A DNA stretch of 64,000 bases from an uncultured SAR86 cluster bacterium (GTDB lineage Bacteria; Pseudomonadota; Gammaproteobacteria; Magnimaribacterales; AG-339-G14). The stretch is taken from the NCBI GenBank assembly GCA_902635045.1, contig CACPMT010000002.1, positions 1 through 64,000 on the forward strand. Reading direction: 5' to 3'. This document shows positions 6,489 through 13,994 of this stretch, piece by piece. The first letter of the stretch is position 1, and every line of letters begins with the position of its first letter. The position numbers were made by a program, and so were the translations under genes. Under the pieces are notes generated by a model that did not search any database, had not been told where the DNA came from, and saw nothing but the letters and a program-made list of their open reading frames with translations.

Positions 6489-9419
6489 ATGATTAAAAAA
6501 ATTTTTCTTACCTTCGTATTAATTTTAAATATTAATTTAAATGCAACGGACTACGATGACGATGCAGCAAAAGTTGATTTTTATGTGCCTGGAATTTTGG
6601 CAAACGATGCTTTGTCTCAAGTGAATTTTTTACTTTGTTTTCAAGCAAATACCAATTTTGGAACGTTTGCTAATGCTGGTCCATATAAAGTTTTAATAGA
6701 TGAAGCAGCATGTCAAACAGCCGATGGAGCAGATGCAGCAGCAGAATTACAGGCTGCTACTGGGGGAAGTTCGGAAGTTGCTACAGACTCAGCAGTTGCA
6801 GCTGTGGAAGAGGTTGTATATAGCCCAGGAATAATGAATATAACTTCAGATGCTGATGGTAAGTTAAATGGCGTAGGTTGGTTTGATATTATAATTGATA
6901 TGGATGACAACGTTACGGTTGACTCAACTGCTTACGTTCAAACTGTATTAAGGCAAGACGTTGGAGCAGGACGTCCATATGGTAACTTCACTTTACTTTA
7001 TGAAATTAAAACGAATGAAGCTGTCACTGTATCAGGACAGCAGATTCCACTAGGAACCGCAATTTTAAAAGGTTATCTAGATGTTGAAGGCACTACTTTA
7101 AAATACTACGAAGATGGACCAAATTTTACGCCAAGAGGAATTGTTGGTGTTCTAGGAACAAACAAACGTAATGGTTATTTACTTACAAACATTCAAAAAT
7201 TTTCTGGCAATCCTCCGAATATAACTGTTGATTGGTATCAAGCAAGATATAAATTATTCCAAGATCTTACCGCCAAAGTTTATTGTCAAAAATTTGATAG
7301 AGCCATAAAGTACAATGTAACAGCTCAAGGGTTACAACCCTCTACGACTACTTATGAAGACGCTACAGCTTTTAATAACGAAATTGCTGCAGCTTTTACT
7401 AATCCACCAACTGCCTCTCTTTCTTTGGAAGGAGGAACCAAAGCAACCGTTCGTAACGAGAATTGTTGGAGTACTGATATTGCCGAAGCGACTAGAGTAG
7501 TCTATGAATACGGAACTTATTTGGATACAACTGGAGCTAGATATGACCTTCCTAGTACTTCATTGTCGTTAGAAGCAAATCCTACTGATAATCCTGGTGC
7601 CAATTTAACTCAAAACATTTATGCTCATGCAAGTTATCATGGCACGCACGTAAGAGATTCAGATCAAGCTAAAATTAATAGCAACTTAATTTTTAAAAAT
7701 CAACGAGATTCATCGGATACTGCGGTTTATTCTTTAACCAAAAATTATTATCAGGTTTGGAAAAAAACTTCTGCAACCAAAGCACTCAACCAGTTAGACG
7801 GTATAGGTTTTCAATGGTATGTAGGTGGTCTTAAAACTCATCCAACCTGGAGTTCAAAAATCGGAGCGAGTGGTTTTAGTTGGCCTCTCACCGGAAATTG
7901 CAACGCTGCGCAGGGAAACTGTCCTGAATATTCTGGATATATAACTGTTAACGGTGCGAATAACGTTGTTACTTTTACAGCCACTCACGGCATGAATTGG
8001 AATACTTCGCCACCAATAAAACCATTTGAGTTAAACACGCCTTTGACTTTTACATCGACGCAATGGGTCGCAGCAATGACCGACGGCAGTGGCTGGAATG
8101 AAAGTATGTATTTTCACAATCCAGATTCCAGAGAACAGTACCGACTTCCCTATGCTGCTTTTAATAACACGACTGCGGCAAATGTTAAAATAACTGCAGA
8201 AAATAAAGTCGATATTGCGTCATTAAATGGTAAAACTTTTATCTGTGTTGAAAGATGTTTAGCAAAGGACAACTTAAACAATGCCATAGCCGATGCTTTT
8301 ACTAAAGTTGATGCGGGGGCAAATCCTGCGGTTTTAGGTCATACACCTTATAATTTCACAGGCCCCTTTTTTAAAGTGGCAAGTTATTACGATGGTGGAA
8401 CGGTTAACGAAGATCAAGACGGAAACGAACCAACTGAGGGTGCTGGCAGGTACAACAATATTGGCGGTGTTGTAAATGCTGAATTATCAAGTTATACCGT
8501 GAGTAACGGAGTTCTTGTTGGGTCGGTTAATGACGGAGGAAATATCGAATGGACACCAGCAAATGCAAGTAAGTTAGATCAAAGAAAATATAGGGACGGC
8601 ATCAGAAGATATCAATATAAAACTAAGTATCCTACTTTCACCGTTGATAATTGGACAAGACAATTCGGCCATTCTTTTCGAATGACTGCTATTGATCAGA
8701 CCGACAAAGCTAGCATTAAGTGTAGTACAGTTGGTGGTAACGCAAGAGGCTATACCAATAAATATCGTGCTCAGACAACAGCTGGAGGCTTTAGTACGGA
8801 CGATTCTCTTCTTGTGACTGGCGACGTCTACTATTGTGGTCGGAAAATTAGAGAAGGTGTTGTCGATAGTTATGTTTTTGAGTTGCTCAAAAGACCAGAT
8901 TACAAAATCTTAAAAGATGGTCAAGCGGTAACAATTTCTCCTCCTAAAAGTTATGAATATGCTGTTCCAGCAAGTGGCATAACTTATAATTTTCCTGGTA
9001 CTAATTTAGCCGGTAAGAAATTTACTCTTAAATTTGAAGGCTTTGGTAATCTTCATAATTTTCCAGGAAAAGTTTTCAATACATGCACAGGAGATGTTGT
9101 TGGAAGGTATGTAGATTCTTGGGATGAGTGTTATCGATACATACCAGAATTTACTTTGCCTGATGCAGCCATCCTTACAGACAAAACAGGTAATGAAGAC
9201 ATCCGAGTCAGAGCATTAAGGGGTGATGAGTTTTTAAAACAGTTTGCAACCAATAATCTTCCCGGTAATAGAACTTATGCAGATGATTTGGTTTTACCTA
9301 CTGCTAGTGATTTAGTTACGGTTTCTTCTATTATTGGCACTAAACCAACAACTGGAATCCTCAATGGAGGAAAAGCGTCTGTTATTCACGGTGAAACTGT
9401 AGCAGCTCCAAGTCCATAA
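6489..9419 (+). CDS. large secreted protein of unknown family, paralog of 12276-13994 product
   Basis: A 976-residue exported protein; the first 19 residues form a signal peptide (cleavage probably after LNA). No family recognised. It is rich in Asn, Thr, Tyr and Gly and has cysteines spread in pairs. Three collinear segments resemble the 572-residue product at 12276: an N-terminal block (residues about 45-172, FLLCF, YKVLID, PYGNFTLLYE), a middle block (324-352, NENCWS to YGTYLDTTGARYDL) and a C-terminal block (about 866-908, TGDVVGRY to TDKTGNEDIRVR). Residues 85-110 hold an Ala-rich low-complexity stretch. ATG is preceded by GAGGATTAAAC. It is 18 bases after the cupredoxin-like lipoprotein gene and probably cotranscribed. 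Surface or extracellular location is inferred. Confidence 0.8.
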   Translation: MIKKIFLTFVLILNINLNATDYDDDAAKVDFYVPGILANDALSQVNFLLCFQANTNFGTFANAGPYKVLIDEAACQTADGADAAAELQAATGGSSEVATDSAVAAVEEVVYSPGIMNITSDADGKLNGVGWFDIIIDMDDNVTVDSTAYVQTVLRQDVGAGRPYGNFTLLYEIKTNEAVTVSGQQIPLGTAILKGYLDVEGTTLKYYEDGPNFTPRGIVGVLGTNKRNGYLLTNIQKFSGNPPNITVDWYQARYKLFQDLTAKVYCQKFDRAIKYNVTAQGLQPSTTTYEDATAFNNEIAAAFTNPPTASLSLEGGTKATVRNENCWSTDIAEATRVVYEYGTYLDTTGARYDLPSTSLSLEANPTDNPGANLTQNIYAHASYHGTHVRDSDQAKINSNLIFKNQRDSSDTAVYSLTKNYYQVWKKTSATKALNQLDGIGFQWYVGGLKTHPTWSSKIGASGFSWPLTGNCNAAQGNCPEYSGYITVNGANNVVTFTATHGMNWNTSPPIKPFELNTPLTFTSTQWVAAMTDGSGWNESMYFHNPDSREQYRLPYAAFNNTTAANVKITAENKVDIASLNGKTFICVERCLAKDNLNNAIADAFTKVDAGANPAVLGHTPYNFTGPFFKVASYYDGGTVNEDQDGNEPTEGAGRYNNIGGVVNAELSSYTVSNGVLVGSVNDGGNIEWTPANASKLDQRKYRDGIRRYQYKTKYPTFTVDNWTRQFGHSFRMTAIDQTDKASIKCSTVGGNARGYTNKYRAQTTAGGFSTDDSLLVTGDVYYCGRKIREGVVDSYVFELLKRPDYKILKDGQAVTISPPKSYEYAVPASGITYNFPGTNLAGKKFTLKFEGFGNLHNFPGKVFNTCTGDVVGRYVDSWDECYRYIPEFTLPDAAILTDKTGNEDIRVRALRGDEFLKQFATNNLPGNRTYADDLVLPTASDLVTVSSIIGTKPTTGILNGGKASVIHGETVAAPSP

Positions 9420-9718: not shown

Positions 9719-9992
9719 AATTGATTTAATTTATGAATCTTTAAGCAGCAAACTTCCTGATACGTCTATTTCTAAAAATTCTGATGAAGTCTCAATCAAG
9801 ATAAACTCAAATAATCCTGACCCAATTGAAATATCAATTCAATTAATTCAGAACCAATATAGAGTTACTTATTGGGATGGTTATGCAGTAAATGAGTTTT
9901 ACGATTATGCAAACTTGAATAAGGCTCTAAAAAAATTTAACAAATTTACTTTGAAAGCTTTTAATAATATTCAAAAGTTTGGGATCAAATAG
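9681..9992 (+). CDS. hypothetical protein, 103 residues
   Basis: The frame starts at a GTG inside the end of the DUF2805 gene, with AGG eight bases upstream; a downstream TTG (9699) is an alternative. The product has an acidic N-terminal helix and a central beta-rich section (EISIQLIQNQYRVTYWDGYAVNEF) followed by a lysine-rich helix. No signal peptide, no cysteine, no family recognised. Overlap with the previous gene and a 8-base overlap with the convergent dehalogenase gene fit a compact genome. It could be a partner of the DUF2805 protein, which is inference from adjacency only. Confidence 0.55.
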   Translation: MTDRENLLAKEDRIDLIYESLSSKLPDTSISKNSDEVSIKINSNNPDPIEISIQLIQNQYRVTYWDGYAVNEFYDYANLNKALKKFNKFTLKAFNNIQKFGIK

Positions 9993-10848
9993 AGCTTATA
10001 AATTCTTTTATATGCAATCCTATGTCATCTGGAGAGTGCTCCTGAATAAAATGATTACCCTTCACGGACACTTCTTTTAAGTTTTTCCAGGTTCTCACAA
10101 ATTCTCTTTGGTCGCCAATTAAGATAGATCCTGGTTCTGCATTGATAAACAGTTTAGGGATATCTGAATCTTTGTGAAATTCAGAATTTTTACTTACTTC
10201 TTCGACAACTTCACTGGGTTCACCCTCGATAGGTATTTGTCTTGGCCATGTAAGGGTAGGGCGTCTGTCTTCGCCAGGGTTTTTAAACGGTCTTATGTAT
10301 TCAGCTTTTTCTTCCTCTGAAAAACCATTGGCTGAATCATTGAGCAAAATTCTTTCGACAAAAATATTTTTTTCCAAAACAATTTTTTCACCAGCTTCAG
10401 ACCTCATTAGTTGAAATATATTTCTGGCATTTTCAGGCCATTGTTCCCATGTTAAAGGCATCACTATTGCTTCCATGAAACTTATGGATTTAATTAGATC
10501 TGAGTTTTCTCTTGCATACTGAAAGCCCATTGCTGAGCCCCAATCATGAATAACCAAATTAATTTGATTTCCTAAATCCAAAGAATTCAATAAAGTTGAT
10601 AAATATTTATATTGGCCATGATATTTATAGTCGGGGTTGTCTATGCCTTCTAATTTTTCTGAATCGCCCATGCCAATTAAGTCTGGAACTATTATTCTTC
10701 CCATGCCTTCAAGATGAGGTGTAATGTTTCTCCACAAAAAAGAAGAAGCAGGATTGCCGTGAAGAAAGACAATTGAGTCTCCTTCACCATGATCTATGTA
10801 AGCCATTTTTTTTCCTAAAATTTCAATATATTTTTTTTCTGCGCTCAT
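9985..10848 (-). CDS. haloalkane dehalogenase, LinB/DhaA-type (subfamily II)
   Basis: A 287-residue cytoplasmic alpha/beta hydrolase with the residue set of subfamily II haloalkane dehalogenases. HGNPASSFLWR carries the halide-binding Asn32; VIHDWGSAMGF gives nucleophile Asp102 and halide-binding Trp103; FMEAIVMP supplies acid Glu126; GNHFIQEHSPDDIG supplies base His266. Known members hydrolyse carbon-halogen bonds of haloalkanes to alcohols. The Asp-Trp pair plus HGNP and the Glu after strand 6 separate it from epoxide hydrolases. It is convergent with the hypothetical gene at 9681 and divergent from a second dehalogenase-like gene 67 bases away. ATG has AAAGGAG upstream. Substrate range cannot be read from sequence. 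Confidence 0.88.
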   Translation of the reverse strand: MSAEKKYIEILGKKMAYIDHGEGDSIVFLHGNPASSFLWRNITPHLEGMGRIIVPDLIGMGDSEKLEGIDNPDYKYHGQYKYLSTLLNSLDLGNQINLVIHDWGSAMGFQYARENSDLIKSISFMEAIVMPLTWEQWPENARNIFQLMRSEAGEKIVLEKNIFVERILLNDSANGFSEEEKAEYIRPFKNPGEDRRPTLTWPRQIPIEGEPSEVVEEVSKNSEFHKDSDIPKLFINAEPGSILIGDQREFVRTWKNLKEVSVKGNHFIQEHSPDDIGLHIKEFISSI

Positions 10849-10915
10849 AGTAACTCCTTTATAATCTAGAAATTATAAATTAAAAAAACTCTTTATTTAT
10901 AATTTGGAGGTCATA

Positions 10916-12040
10916 GTGAATAAAATATTTTCAATATTGTTTTTTTTAGGTCTTATTTTAACGGGGATATTTCAATACACTAGAAATCTTGATGTAGAAG
11001 TAAATTATGAGAGATTTAATTTGGTTTCTCCTGGCATTCTAAGAACTCCTGAAGAAAGATTTAAGAATTTAAAGGACTATGATTTTGAACCAAACTATCT
11101 TCAAATCAACGGTTTGAGAATTCATTATTTAGATGAAGGCCCTAAAGACGGCGAGGTGATATTTCTTCTGCACGGACAACCAGCTTGGAGTTATTTGTTT
11201 AGAAAGATGATTCCTACTCTCGTCGGTGAAGGCTACAGAGTAATTGCTCCAGATATGGTAGGTTTTGGAAAATCCGATAAGTACATCAATATTGATGATT
11301 ACTCGCATCAAATGCATGTCGACATAATAACTAATCTGATAAAAGAACTAGATTTAACGGATATAACCGCTCATGTGCATGACTGGGGAGGGTTAGTTGG
11401 TTTGAGAGTTGTTGCTGAAGAACCAGATAGATTTTCAAGAGTAATTGCTTCTAATACAGGTTTAATTGCTCCGGGCAGGGGCTTGATTAACGATATAAGA
11501 GGTTTTTTCTTAGGTCCTATATTTAAATTAACTATTTGGTTGCAGGGTCCAGCGACATGGGAAGAATTTATCGGCGGAAGTGGTTTTAGTAACTGGATTA
11601 GATATTCAAGATACACTGATAACATTGACGTAGGTGGTGTCATGCAAACCTTGGGCTCTGTAAATTCCGAAGAGAGATTGGGATATGAAGCACCTTATCC
11701 AAATGCGTCCTATAAGGCCGGTGCTCAAATTTTTCCATATTTAATTCCTAGCGAATTAAGAAAAAATGAAATGGCTTTCAGAAACGTATTAGAAAAATGG
11801 AACAAACCATTTTTAATCGCAAATAGCGATAATGATCCGGTGACAGGAAACAATCCTGGAATTGTAGAAGGCTTAAAAAGAATTCCTTCCGCGCAAGAAA
11901 TAGTTATAAAAGGTCCAGGACATTTCATACAAGAAGAAGCTGGCCCAGAGTATGCACAACTTATAATTGATTTTATTAATGGAAATCCTCAAGGCTTCGA
12001 AGTAGAAAGTAAAGACGTAAATCTGAAGGAGATTTTATAG
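10916..12040 (+). CDS. membrane-anchored haloalkane dehalogenase-like hydrolase, DhlA-type (subfamily I)
   Basis: I choose GTG 10916 because GGAGG lies five bases upstream; the in-frame TTG at 10904 sits in that site. The 374-residue product has an N-terminal hydrophobic anchor (residues 3-20) not found in typical cytoplasmic dehalogenases. RTPEERFKNLKDYDFEPNYL matches the N-terminal signature of DhlA-type (subfamily I) enzymes. HGQPAWSYLFRKM is near 86, HDWGG gives nucleophile Asp156 with Trp157, NSDNDPVTG offers the acid Asp305 or 307, and PGHFIQEE gives His336. The Gln in HGQP replaces the Asn of subfamily II, as in DhlA. It may face the periplasm. Dehalogenation is likely but not certain; other alpha/beta hydrolase reactions are possible. 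Confidence 0.82.
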   Translation: MNKIFSILFFLGLILTGIFQYTRNLDVEVNYERFNLVSPGILRTPEERFKNLKDYDFEPNYLQINGLRIHYLDEGPKDGEVIFLLHGQPAWSYLFRKMIPTLVGEGYRVIAPDMVGFGKSDKYINIDDYSHQMHVDIITNLIKELDLTDITAHVHDWGGLVGLRVVAEEPDRFSRVIASNTGLIAPGRGLINDIRGFFLGPIFKLTIWLQGPATWEEFIGGSGFSNWIRYSRYTDNIDVGGVMQTLGSVNSEERLGYEAPYPNASYKAGAQIFPYLIPSELRKNEMAFRNVLEKWNKPFLIANSDNDPVTGNNPGIVEGLKRIPSAQEIVIKGPGHFIQEEAGPEYAQLIIDFINGNPQGFEVESKDVNLKEIL

Positions 12041-12275: not shown

Positions 12276-13994
12276 ATGAAGAAAATTCTTTTTTTAACTT
12301 TAATTTTTTCCAGCGGCATATTTTCTTTTCCAGATTTAAATACATTTGATAAATCCAAACCCATCTGGAGAAATGCAAAAATTATATACGTACATCAATA
12401 TATGTTGGACGTTGCTTTTGGCAGAATAAACAGTTACTTATGCCTAATTAATAAGACGGATTACCAAAATAATTCAAATTTGGGAGACGGAATTGGTTAT
12501 AAAGTAATCTTGAACAATTCTGATTGTGAACATGCAGAAGCTTCTATACCTTGGACGGTGGTTTCAAAACAAGAATCAAAGAATGCAGATCTCGACATAG
12601 AACTGTTCAAGTCAGATCAAGCTGTTGACTATAAGTTAAAGATAAACATAGAAGAAGAAGTTTCTGATTCTAATCCTTTTGGAGTATTAACTATAGATTA
12701 TAGTTCCGTATTTAAATCTAATTCGTCTCCTTTATACAATGCATCTTATGAATCAAGAAAACTTTCAGAAAATCAAGTTAAATTTGAAGCAGCTTATTAT
12801 ATGGATGGTGTTGTTATAAATAATTTAATTCCCTTTGAATTCGATAAATATTTTTATTCATCAAAAATTATCCATACATCTAACTCAGGAGGGTATGGGA
12901 CTGCAACTTCGCTCAATTTTAATCCAACTATAGAAATTCCAAATACAGGAGGAGTTAAATACCTTACTTACTTTGCTGCACAGTATCCTCAATATTTTCC
13001 TACAGGTTATACAGGAAATTATCCTGACGGGAATCCAATTTCAATACAGACAGTAAATTTTGCTTACAATGATAAAGTTATTAAATTTGAAGTTACCGAT
13101 GGGTATTCTGGCGTCAAAAATGGTGTTTGGTTAAACGCAGGACCTAATGGTGGTGGAACATTTCAGCGATCTTCTCAAAATTCAGAATTGTGTGTCAATA
13201 GAACCGGAAGTTGGACTTATGTAGGGCCAACAAATTATGGCGTCTATAATACTTCTGGAGATAGAATAAATAACAATCCTGACGGGGATGGAAATCCCAA
13301 CACAGCTTTATCAGTCAATTATAACTTACAAGCCATAAATAATATCACTGCAAATAATGCCACCTTCGATGGAACTATAAAAATTTTTAGTGGTAGCTGG
13401 GTTGGAACTGGTCTCCAATGCAAAAAAATTGCAGATGGAAGCTCTTATGGAAATACTCTTTGTCCTGGAACTACAACAGGAGACGTAAGCACTATAGTTC
13501 TTATTAATGGAGAATATTATTCAAACTTTCCTTTTTTCGACGTTCCGGAAGGTACCGTAGTAACTGATGCTCAAGGTAACGAATACTATATAAGGCAGTT
13601 AGGTGAAAAAAAGGTTTATCCAATGAAACCTGTAGGAGACTCAGATTGCGCTACATTAACTTTGCAAAATACTTTAGATACACCGGACCATAACTTTTTT
13701 AATTATCCAGTTATGAATTTGCCAAAATCAGGAGCTGTTATTATTAATGAATTTTCATCTGATCCACTGGCAGATGAATATTTGCAGGGTAAATCTTTTT
13801 CAAAAAATGGTGACGATGATGGCGATGGCGTCTTAAATTATTTGGATGCTTTTCCGGAAGATGCTCTTAAAAGTTTAGACGCCGACCAAGATGGTATAGA
13901 CGATGCTGTCGATAATAACATTGCTCCATTTCAATTAGATTGGAATAATTTTAAATACTCAGGAAAGTCTCTCTATTCTAATTATTCTAAATAG
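12276..13994 (+). CDS. secreted protein of unknown family with calcium-binding-like tail, paralog of 6489-9419 product
   Basis: A 572-residue exported protein with a signal peptide (MKKILFLTLIFSSGIFS). Residues about 50-145 (INSYLCL, GYKVILNNSDC, PFGVLTIDY), 304-331 (ELCVNRTGSW to YGVYNTSGDRI) and 400-440 (TGDVSTIVL to VVTDAQGNEYYIR) match the large protein at 6489 in the same order, so I read them as paralogs with about 400 fewer residues between the last two blocks here. Residues 511-548 carry Asp-rich NGDDDGDGV and DADQDGIDD segments like thrombospondin type 3 or EF-hand calcium loops, absent from the larger paralog. The start directly follows the mini-lipoprotein stop, and the next gene's GTG overlaps this stop by one base. 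Confidence 0.8.
   Translation: MKKILFLTLIFSSGIFSFPDLNTFDKSKPIWRNAKIIYVHQYMLDVAFGRINSYLCLINKTDYQNNSNLGDGIGYKVILNNSDCEHAEASIPWTVVSKQESKNADLDIELFKSDQAVDYKLKINIEEEVSDSNPFGVLTIDYSSVFKSNSSPLYNASYESRKLSENQVKFEAAYYMDGVVINNLIPFEFDKYFYSSKIIHTSNSGGYGTATSLNFNPTIEIPNTGGVKYLTYFAAQYPQYFPTGYTGNYPDGNPISIQTVNFAYNDKVIKFEVTDGYSGVKNGVWLNAGPNGGGTFQRSSQNSELCVNRTGSWTYVGPTNYGVYNTSGDRINNNPDGDGNPNTALSVNYNLQAINNITANNATFDGTIKIFSGSWVGTGLQCKKIADGSSYGNTLCPGTTTGDVSTIVLINGEYYSNFPFFDVPEGTVVTDAQGNEYYIRQLGEKKVYPMKPVGDSDCATLTLQNTLDTPDHNFFNYPVMNLPKSGAVIINEFSSDPLADEYLQGKSFSKNGDDDGDGVLNYLDAFPEDALKSLDADQDGIDDAVDNNIAPFQLDWNNFKYSGKSLYSNYSK

Follow-up and report, generated by a model that had tools for sequence, protein, structure and literature searches.

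Two haloalkane dehalogenases of different subfamilies, one of them predicted to be exported, form a divergent gene pair in a SAR86 genome

A stretch of 64,000 nucleotides from a SAR86 genome (the window; host genome 1.11 Mb in 9 contigs) carries two divergently oriented haloalkane dehalogenase (HLD) genes, one for a subfamily II enzyme (HLD-II) and one for a subfamily I enzyme (HLD-I) with an enlarged cap and a hydrophobic N-terminal segment that is predicted to export it. The best reading of the pair, which we consider probable, is that hydrolytic dehalogenation is split between two compartments of the SAR86 cell. Neither enzyme is of a new kind. What is new, as far as the literature accessible to the search shows, is the clade of exported long-cap HLD-I.

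Results

Gene pair and start codons

Both open reading frames were found where the original prediction had placed them, in divergent orientation, and the spacing of 67 bases from start to start (10849-10915) was reproduced with GTG at 10916 as the plus-strand start. This codon was preferred because GGAGG lies close upstream and the start aligns with those of relatives, giving 374 amino acids; on the same grounds TTG at 10904, the start of the gene in the open reading frame list, was dropped. An HLD-I 96% identical to the plus-strand enzyme is encoded by AG-337-B16, a single-cell genome of the SAR86 cluster. The pair is flanked on either side by large putative secreted proteins of 976 and 572 amino acids (window 6489-9419 and 12276-13994), for which Pfam and NCBIfam gave no match; the 976-residue protein is just 68% identical in G002, a genome of the same genus, as against more than 90% for its neighbours. 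Coordinates are collected in Table 1.

Table 1. Features of the divergent HLD pair in the window (residue numbers refer to the encoded proteins)
Feature	Position	Strand	Basis
HLD-II haloalkane dehalogenase, 287 aa, no signal sequence	9985..10848	-	NF002938, LinB alignment, tree
HLD-II pentad residues	N32 10753-10755, D102 10543-10545, W103 10540-10542, E126 10471-10473, H266 10051-10053	-	LinB alignment
Divergent intergenic region, 67 bp	10849..10915	.	Conserved TTTATAAT-CTAGAA-ATTATAAA at 10858-10879; one TATAAT each way
Long-cap HLD-I, predicted exported/anchored, 374 aa, no cysteine	10916..12040	+	NF002043, PDB relatives, predicted model
N-terminal hydrophobic helix (residues 3-23), predicted uncleaved anchor with N-terminus inside	10922..10984	+	Model, 40 anchor-type relatives
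Nucleophile D156 and halide-binding W157	11381..11386	+	Aligned with DhlA D124/W125; invariant, 81 sequences
Cap enlargement ahead of W227; hydrophobic helix of 21 residues at about 190-210	11465..11593	+	Alignment, model
Second halide-binding W227 (DhlA W175), diagnostic of HLD-I	11594..11596	+	Invariant in every aligned sequence
Catalytic acid D307 (DhlA D260)	11834..11836	+	DhlA alignment
Catalytic base H336 (DhlA H289)	11921..11923	+	Invariant in alignment

Subfamily assignment

In HLDs an Asp nucleophile forms an alkyl ester with the substrate, two residues take up the halide, and a His and an acid activate water. The two genes had been proposed to encode HLDs of different subfamilies, and family models, pentads, solved relatives and trees all bear this out. 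The minus-strand enzyme carries the expected HGNP, HDWGS and Glu acid (Glu126) of subfamily II and scored 364.8 bits against the NCBIfam haloalkane dehalogenase model NF002938 (cut-off 241). Among solved structures its closest relatives are 7pw1, Rv2579 and LinB, it is about 53% identical to a Sphingobium LinB, and the HLD-II pentad (Asp-His-Glu with Asn-Trp) is complete, D102, H266, E126, N32 and W103 being invariant with LinB and two others. LinB groups with it at a support of 98/92, and two trees agree. The enzyme is a typical HLD-II from a marine lineage; LinB, DmmarA and Rv2579 resemble it in the catalytic five, in length and in the lack of a signal sequence, and nothing striking differs.

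HLD-I is defined by the pentad Asp-His-Asp with Trp-Trp (PMC6920932). All five residues (D156, H336, D307, W157 and W227) were located in the plus-strand enzyme by DhlA-numbered alignment. The HGQP, HDWGG, LRTPEERFKNL and late Asp from which a DhlA-type subfamily I enzyme had been predicted are present. The protein scored 313.5 bits against NF002043 (haloalkane dehalogenase subfamily; cut-off 265), and its best solved relatives (DpcA, DmrA, DccA and DhlA) are all HLD-I. DhlA of Xanthobacter, DmrA, DccA, DpcA and DpaA are 33-40% identical to it and share the RTPxxRF start, the Asp-Trp nucleophile, the cap Trp, the late Asp and the His. An AlphaFold2 model (mean pLDDT 89.2, pTM 0.86) has an alpha/beta-hydrolase core with a DhlA-like helical cap, and the top 17 Foldseek matches to this model were all HLD-I, with a TM-score of 0.82-0.86 on the target. 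In a tree with three epoxide-hydrolase-type sequences as outgroup, the HLD-I group including the plus-strand enzyme and DhlA was recovered at 98/94, in agreement with an earlier tree. A grouping of the anchored enzyme with epoxide hydrolases, which the original prediction had named as evidence against itself, did not appear: all HLDs were split from them at 100/100, and on this split and the presence of W227 epoxide hydrolase identity was rejected.

Active site and enlarged cap

The nucleophile, both Trp and the His are invariant in 81/81 sequences of the plus-strand family. The catalytic acid (DhlA D260 position) varies by subgroup: it is Asp in all 41 members of group A and Glu in 35 of the 40 members of group B, to which the exported HLD-I of L093, L101 and L115 belong. 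DhlA Glu56 corresponds to Gln88 in the plus-strand enzyme; most relatives keep Glu, the position varying between Gln, Glu and Leu, and the Gln may alter kinetics.

The original prediction had noted extra length at the N-terminus; extra length was found in the cap as well, as an insertion of about 20 residues relative to DhlA. The distance from Trp to Trp is 70 residues, where DhlA has 50 and the other HLD-I have 38-47, and throughout the marine HLD-I clade to which the enzyme belongs the cap is 20-30 residues longer than in known HLD-I. The cap helix was predicted with a pLDDT of about 80-87. A role of the long cap as partner of the anchor in membrane docking was considered and dropped, since in the signal-peptide-like relatives the cap is longer still (81 residues) and contains a comparable hydrophobic stretch.

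The extra hydrophobic helix in the cap, the Glu in group B and the variable residue 88 would also suit an HLD-fold hydrolase that acts on something other than a haloalkane (for example a lactone, an epoxide-like compound or an ester at the membrane), dehalogenation being absent or a side activity. Cytosolic paralogues and some of the exported genes lie beside GST and nitronate monooxygenase-type genes, with no known halo-alcohol or haloacid pathway, and there is precedent in the family: HLD-III 'HLD-like' enzymes and OleB illustrate that members can be poor dehalogenases, lack the activity altogether or catalyse a different reaction (PMC10503415). Against this stands the invariance of the nucleophile, His and both halide-binding Trp in all 81 sequences; with the four residues kept together, a halide or an equally placed anion is hard to avoid. 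We regard a non-haloalkane substrate as unlikely, and dehalogenation as the probable activity of the anchored enzyme.

Predicted N-terminal export segment

The hydrophobic N-terminal segment noted in the original prediction was recovered with a Kyte-Doolittle mean of 2.6 over 15 residues and was modelled as a helix (residues 3-23, pLDDT about 92) within an N-terminal extension of 42 residues. In 79/79 complete named relatives examined the N-terminus is extended by 26-53 residues and contains a hydrophobic core (Kyte-Doolittle mean of at least 1.7 over 15 residues), the window protein being the 80th; these relatives come from SAR86, SAR92, PS1, OCS116 and others. The cytosolic HLD-I paralogues and the HLD-I references, in contrast, start 2-10 residues before the RTP motif, and the DhlA-group enzymes thus differ from the plus-strand enzyme in having no export segment. 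By hydropathy and simple motifs the segments were sorted approximately into 40 uncleaved anchors, about 35 signal-peptide-like N-termini (small-X-small, under a lenient rule) and a few with a lipobox (L054, L023, L028/L099, L038, L109 and G002; the lipobox call for L115 is doubtful). In the 40 anchor-type relatives the mean charge is +1.5 before the segment and -0.4 after it. A hydrophobic segment with a positive N-flank that is kept in orthologues was thus found by hydropathy and motif, and export is predicted on this basis.

The type of export segment changes between close relatives. L054, a congener nested within the anchored clade, has FVSC-S where the anchor stands elsewhere, and the anchor of L088 is 86% identical to that of L053, the body just 56%, so that the L088 segment appears to have been swapped. 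Together with the G002 case described below, these sequences point to an export segment that can be exchanged. Cysteine is absent from 35 of the 40 anchor-type proteins, which fits a periplasmic location, as weak evidence.

In principle, a single helix that is not cleaved may insert in either orientation, and the charge bias is modest; the anchor might then leave the catalytic domain in the cytosol, with both enzymes in one compartment and differing in substrate alone. Lipobox and signal-peptide-like N-termini direct export, however, and both occupy the orthologous slots; swaps among three kinds of export signal on a similar body would not be expected for a cytosolic protein. With three such different signals at the same position, the catalytic domain is unlikely to lie in the cytosol, and we consider this arrangement highly improbable. 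The sequence comparisons support, without proving, a periplasm-facing plus-strand enzyme, and the interchange of the three signals within the family lends backing to the earlier suggestion that the two enzymes act in different compartments.

LinB of Sphingobium UT26 is cited as periplasmic without processing (Nagata et al. 1999, via PMC6771000). As cited there, it offers a precedent for an HLD working in the periplasm, as proposed for the plus-strand enzyme, and it implies that a missing signal is no proof of a cytosolic location for the minus-strand HLD-II. LinB is an HLD-II without a recognisable signal or anchor, whereas the export segment of the SAR86 clade is explicit and a clade-wide trait. 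No described case of an anchored or signal-bearing HLD was found in the literature (titles and abstracts; most subscription journals outside the search), and among the accessible literature naming both SAR86 and haloalkane dehalogenase none appears to describe one in SAR86.

Distribution and further HLDs

About 40 SAR86 species have the anchored long-cap protein, with identities of 69-96%, a recurrence which argues that the features of the pair are no chance product. Full-length relatives (E ≤ 1e-70) were found in 81 of the 203 genomes of the order and in 13 of its 22 genera; outside SAR86, one genome among 369 Gammaproteobacteria sampled had one. Named matches outside SAR86 belong to SAR92, Halioglobus, Rhodobiaceae, PS1, OCS116 and genomes labelled Pelagibacteraceae. 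Exported HLD-I were also seen on short contigs labelled Neomarinimicrobiota and Flavobacteriaceae (L085, L125); their sequences look SAR86-like, and the contigs may be mis-binned. A 4.2 Mb genome of another gammaproteobacterial family (G344) encodes two HLD-I, both with an N-terminal hydrophobic anchor (L127 and L128), which branch just outside the SAR86-type exported clade.

Among 61 close relatives, HLD-II was present in 38 and a second, cytosolic HLD-I in 46. The window genome has three HLDs, namely the two in the window and a cytosolic HLD-I on contig C3, which heads a tight gene row (a putative operon) with two GSTs and another protein that we take to be NIPSNAP-like. In this row (L131, 9414-13053) and in L101 (11131-14631) the cytosolic paralogue has a still longer cap, and the genes beside it encode GSTs, either nitronate monooxygenase or a NIPSNAP-like protein, and a small membrane protein without a known family. 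In genus g3 the order is a divergent TetR regulator, exported HLD-I, GST, nitronate monooxygenase, cytosolic HLD-I and small membrane protein, with HLD-II 6-10 kb further on. Alcanivorax dieselolei likewise is marine and has two HLD genes, DadA and DadB, but both have the HLD-II pentad and neither is described as exported (PMC3938430); the SAR86 pair combines HLD-I with HLD-II, one of them predicted to be exported.

Gene replacement in the divergent slot

The divergent pair was found in the window genome, G001, G006, G003 (with a small gene in between) and G002, all of one genus. The intervening gene (L049, 9475-10000), presumably of the GlcG/HbpS type, has a similar 150-residue open reading frame near the pair in L050. 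Most flanking genes of G002 share 90-99% identity with their window counterparts, and its HLD-II shares 93%. Its HLD-I, which sits in the same divergent slot, shares just 49%, falls in the other subgroup and carries the lipobox IFSC-S. On these comparisons G002 represents an in-place replacement by another exported HLD-I, and since downstream genes also differ, the exchange took in a segment beyond this one gene.

The claim that the two genes are kept together stands within this genus and fails beyond it: in G004 they lie in tandem, and in most other genera HLD-II is elsewhere or 1.4-10 kb away. Restriction of the pair to one genus would be expected if the pairing were a chance of local rearrangement, with no joint function. 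The G002 replacement, in the same place and orientation, speaks against chance, as do those other SAR86 genera in which HLD-II and one or two HLD-I lie within 10 kb. We give a chance pairing somewhat less than an even chance; it is compatible with the compartment proposed for each enzyme.

Intergenic region

A shared promoter gap had been predicted. The 67-base gap and a conserved short inverted repeat within it were found, the element being kept in L047, L048 and L049 and less well in G002, but a sigma-70 scan of the gap was at chance level. On its own, the inverted repeat does not exceed chance expectation (51/1000 shuffles), as a chance pairing would allow. A shared promoter for the pair is plausible; the conserved element could simply be the HLD-II promoter. 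Elsewhere, a TTGACA(T)-N5-(A)TGTCA palindrome lies within 150 bp upstream of 20/80 exported HLD-I genes, compared with 13/961 control upstream regions, related genomes being counted separately. The genes include L051, L056, L062, L073, L093, L101 and L104, the palindrome often overlaps a -35-like TTGACA, and in L093/L101/L104 a divergent TetR gene is adjacent. This palindrome is absent upstream of the window HLD-I.

Discussion

In the proposed division of dehalogenation between compartments, the plus-strand HLD-I would be held in the inner membrane by its uncleaved N-terminal helix with the catalytic domain in the periplasm. There, SN2 attack of D156 on a haloalkane would displace the halide, which W157 and W227 would hold as it leaves, and H336-D307 would activate water, freeing the alcohol. 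The minus-strand HLD-II would perform the same chemistry in the cytosol (D102, N32/W103 and E126-H266) on substrates that reach it or on another size class, given that the two cap domains are not alike. Most likely the substrates of the two enzymes are shared or overlap, with each enzyme working in its own compartment.

The natural role of HLDs is largely obscure because most have been studied on industrial compounds. Up to three HLDs, one of them predicted to be exported, in genomes of about 1.1 Mb, where few dispensable genes are expected, point to natural marine halogenated substrates. More tentatively, and with less than an even chance of being right, the exported long-cap HLD-I may form an ocean-wide clade performing periplasmic dehalogenation in SAR86 and other surface-ocean bacteria, complemented by cytosolic HLD-II and the HLD-I of the GST operon and resulting in a measurable removal of natural haloalkanes from seawater; its export module would be exchangeable and its slot refilled by gene replacement. 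The SAR86 HLD genes provide a concrete test set for a biological sink of marine halocarbons, and dehalogenation may be split over two compartments in bacteria that are very common at the sea surface.
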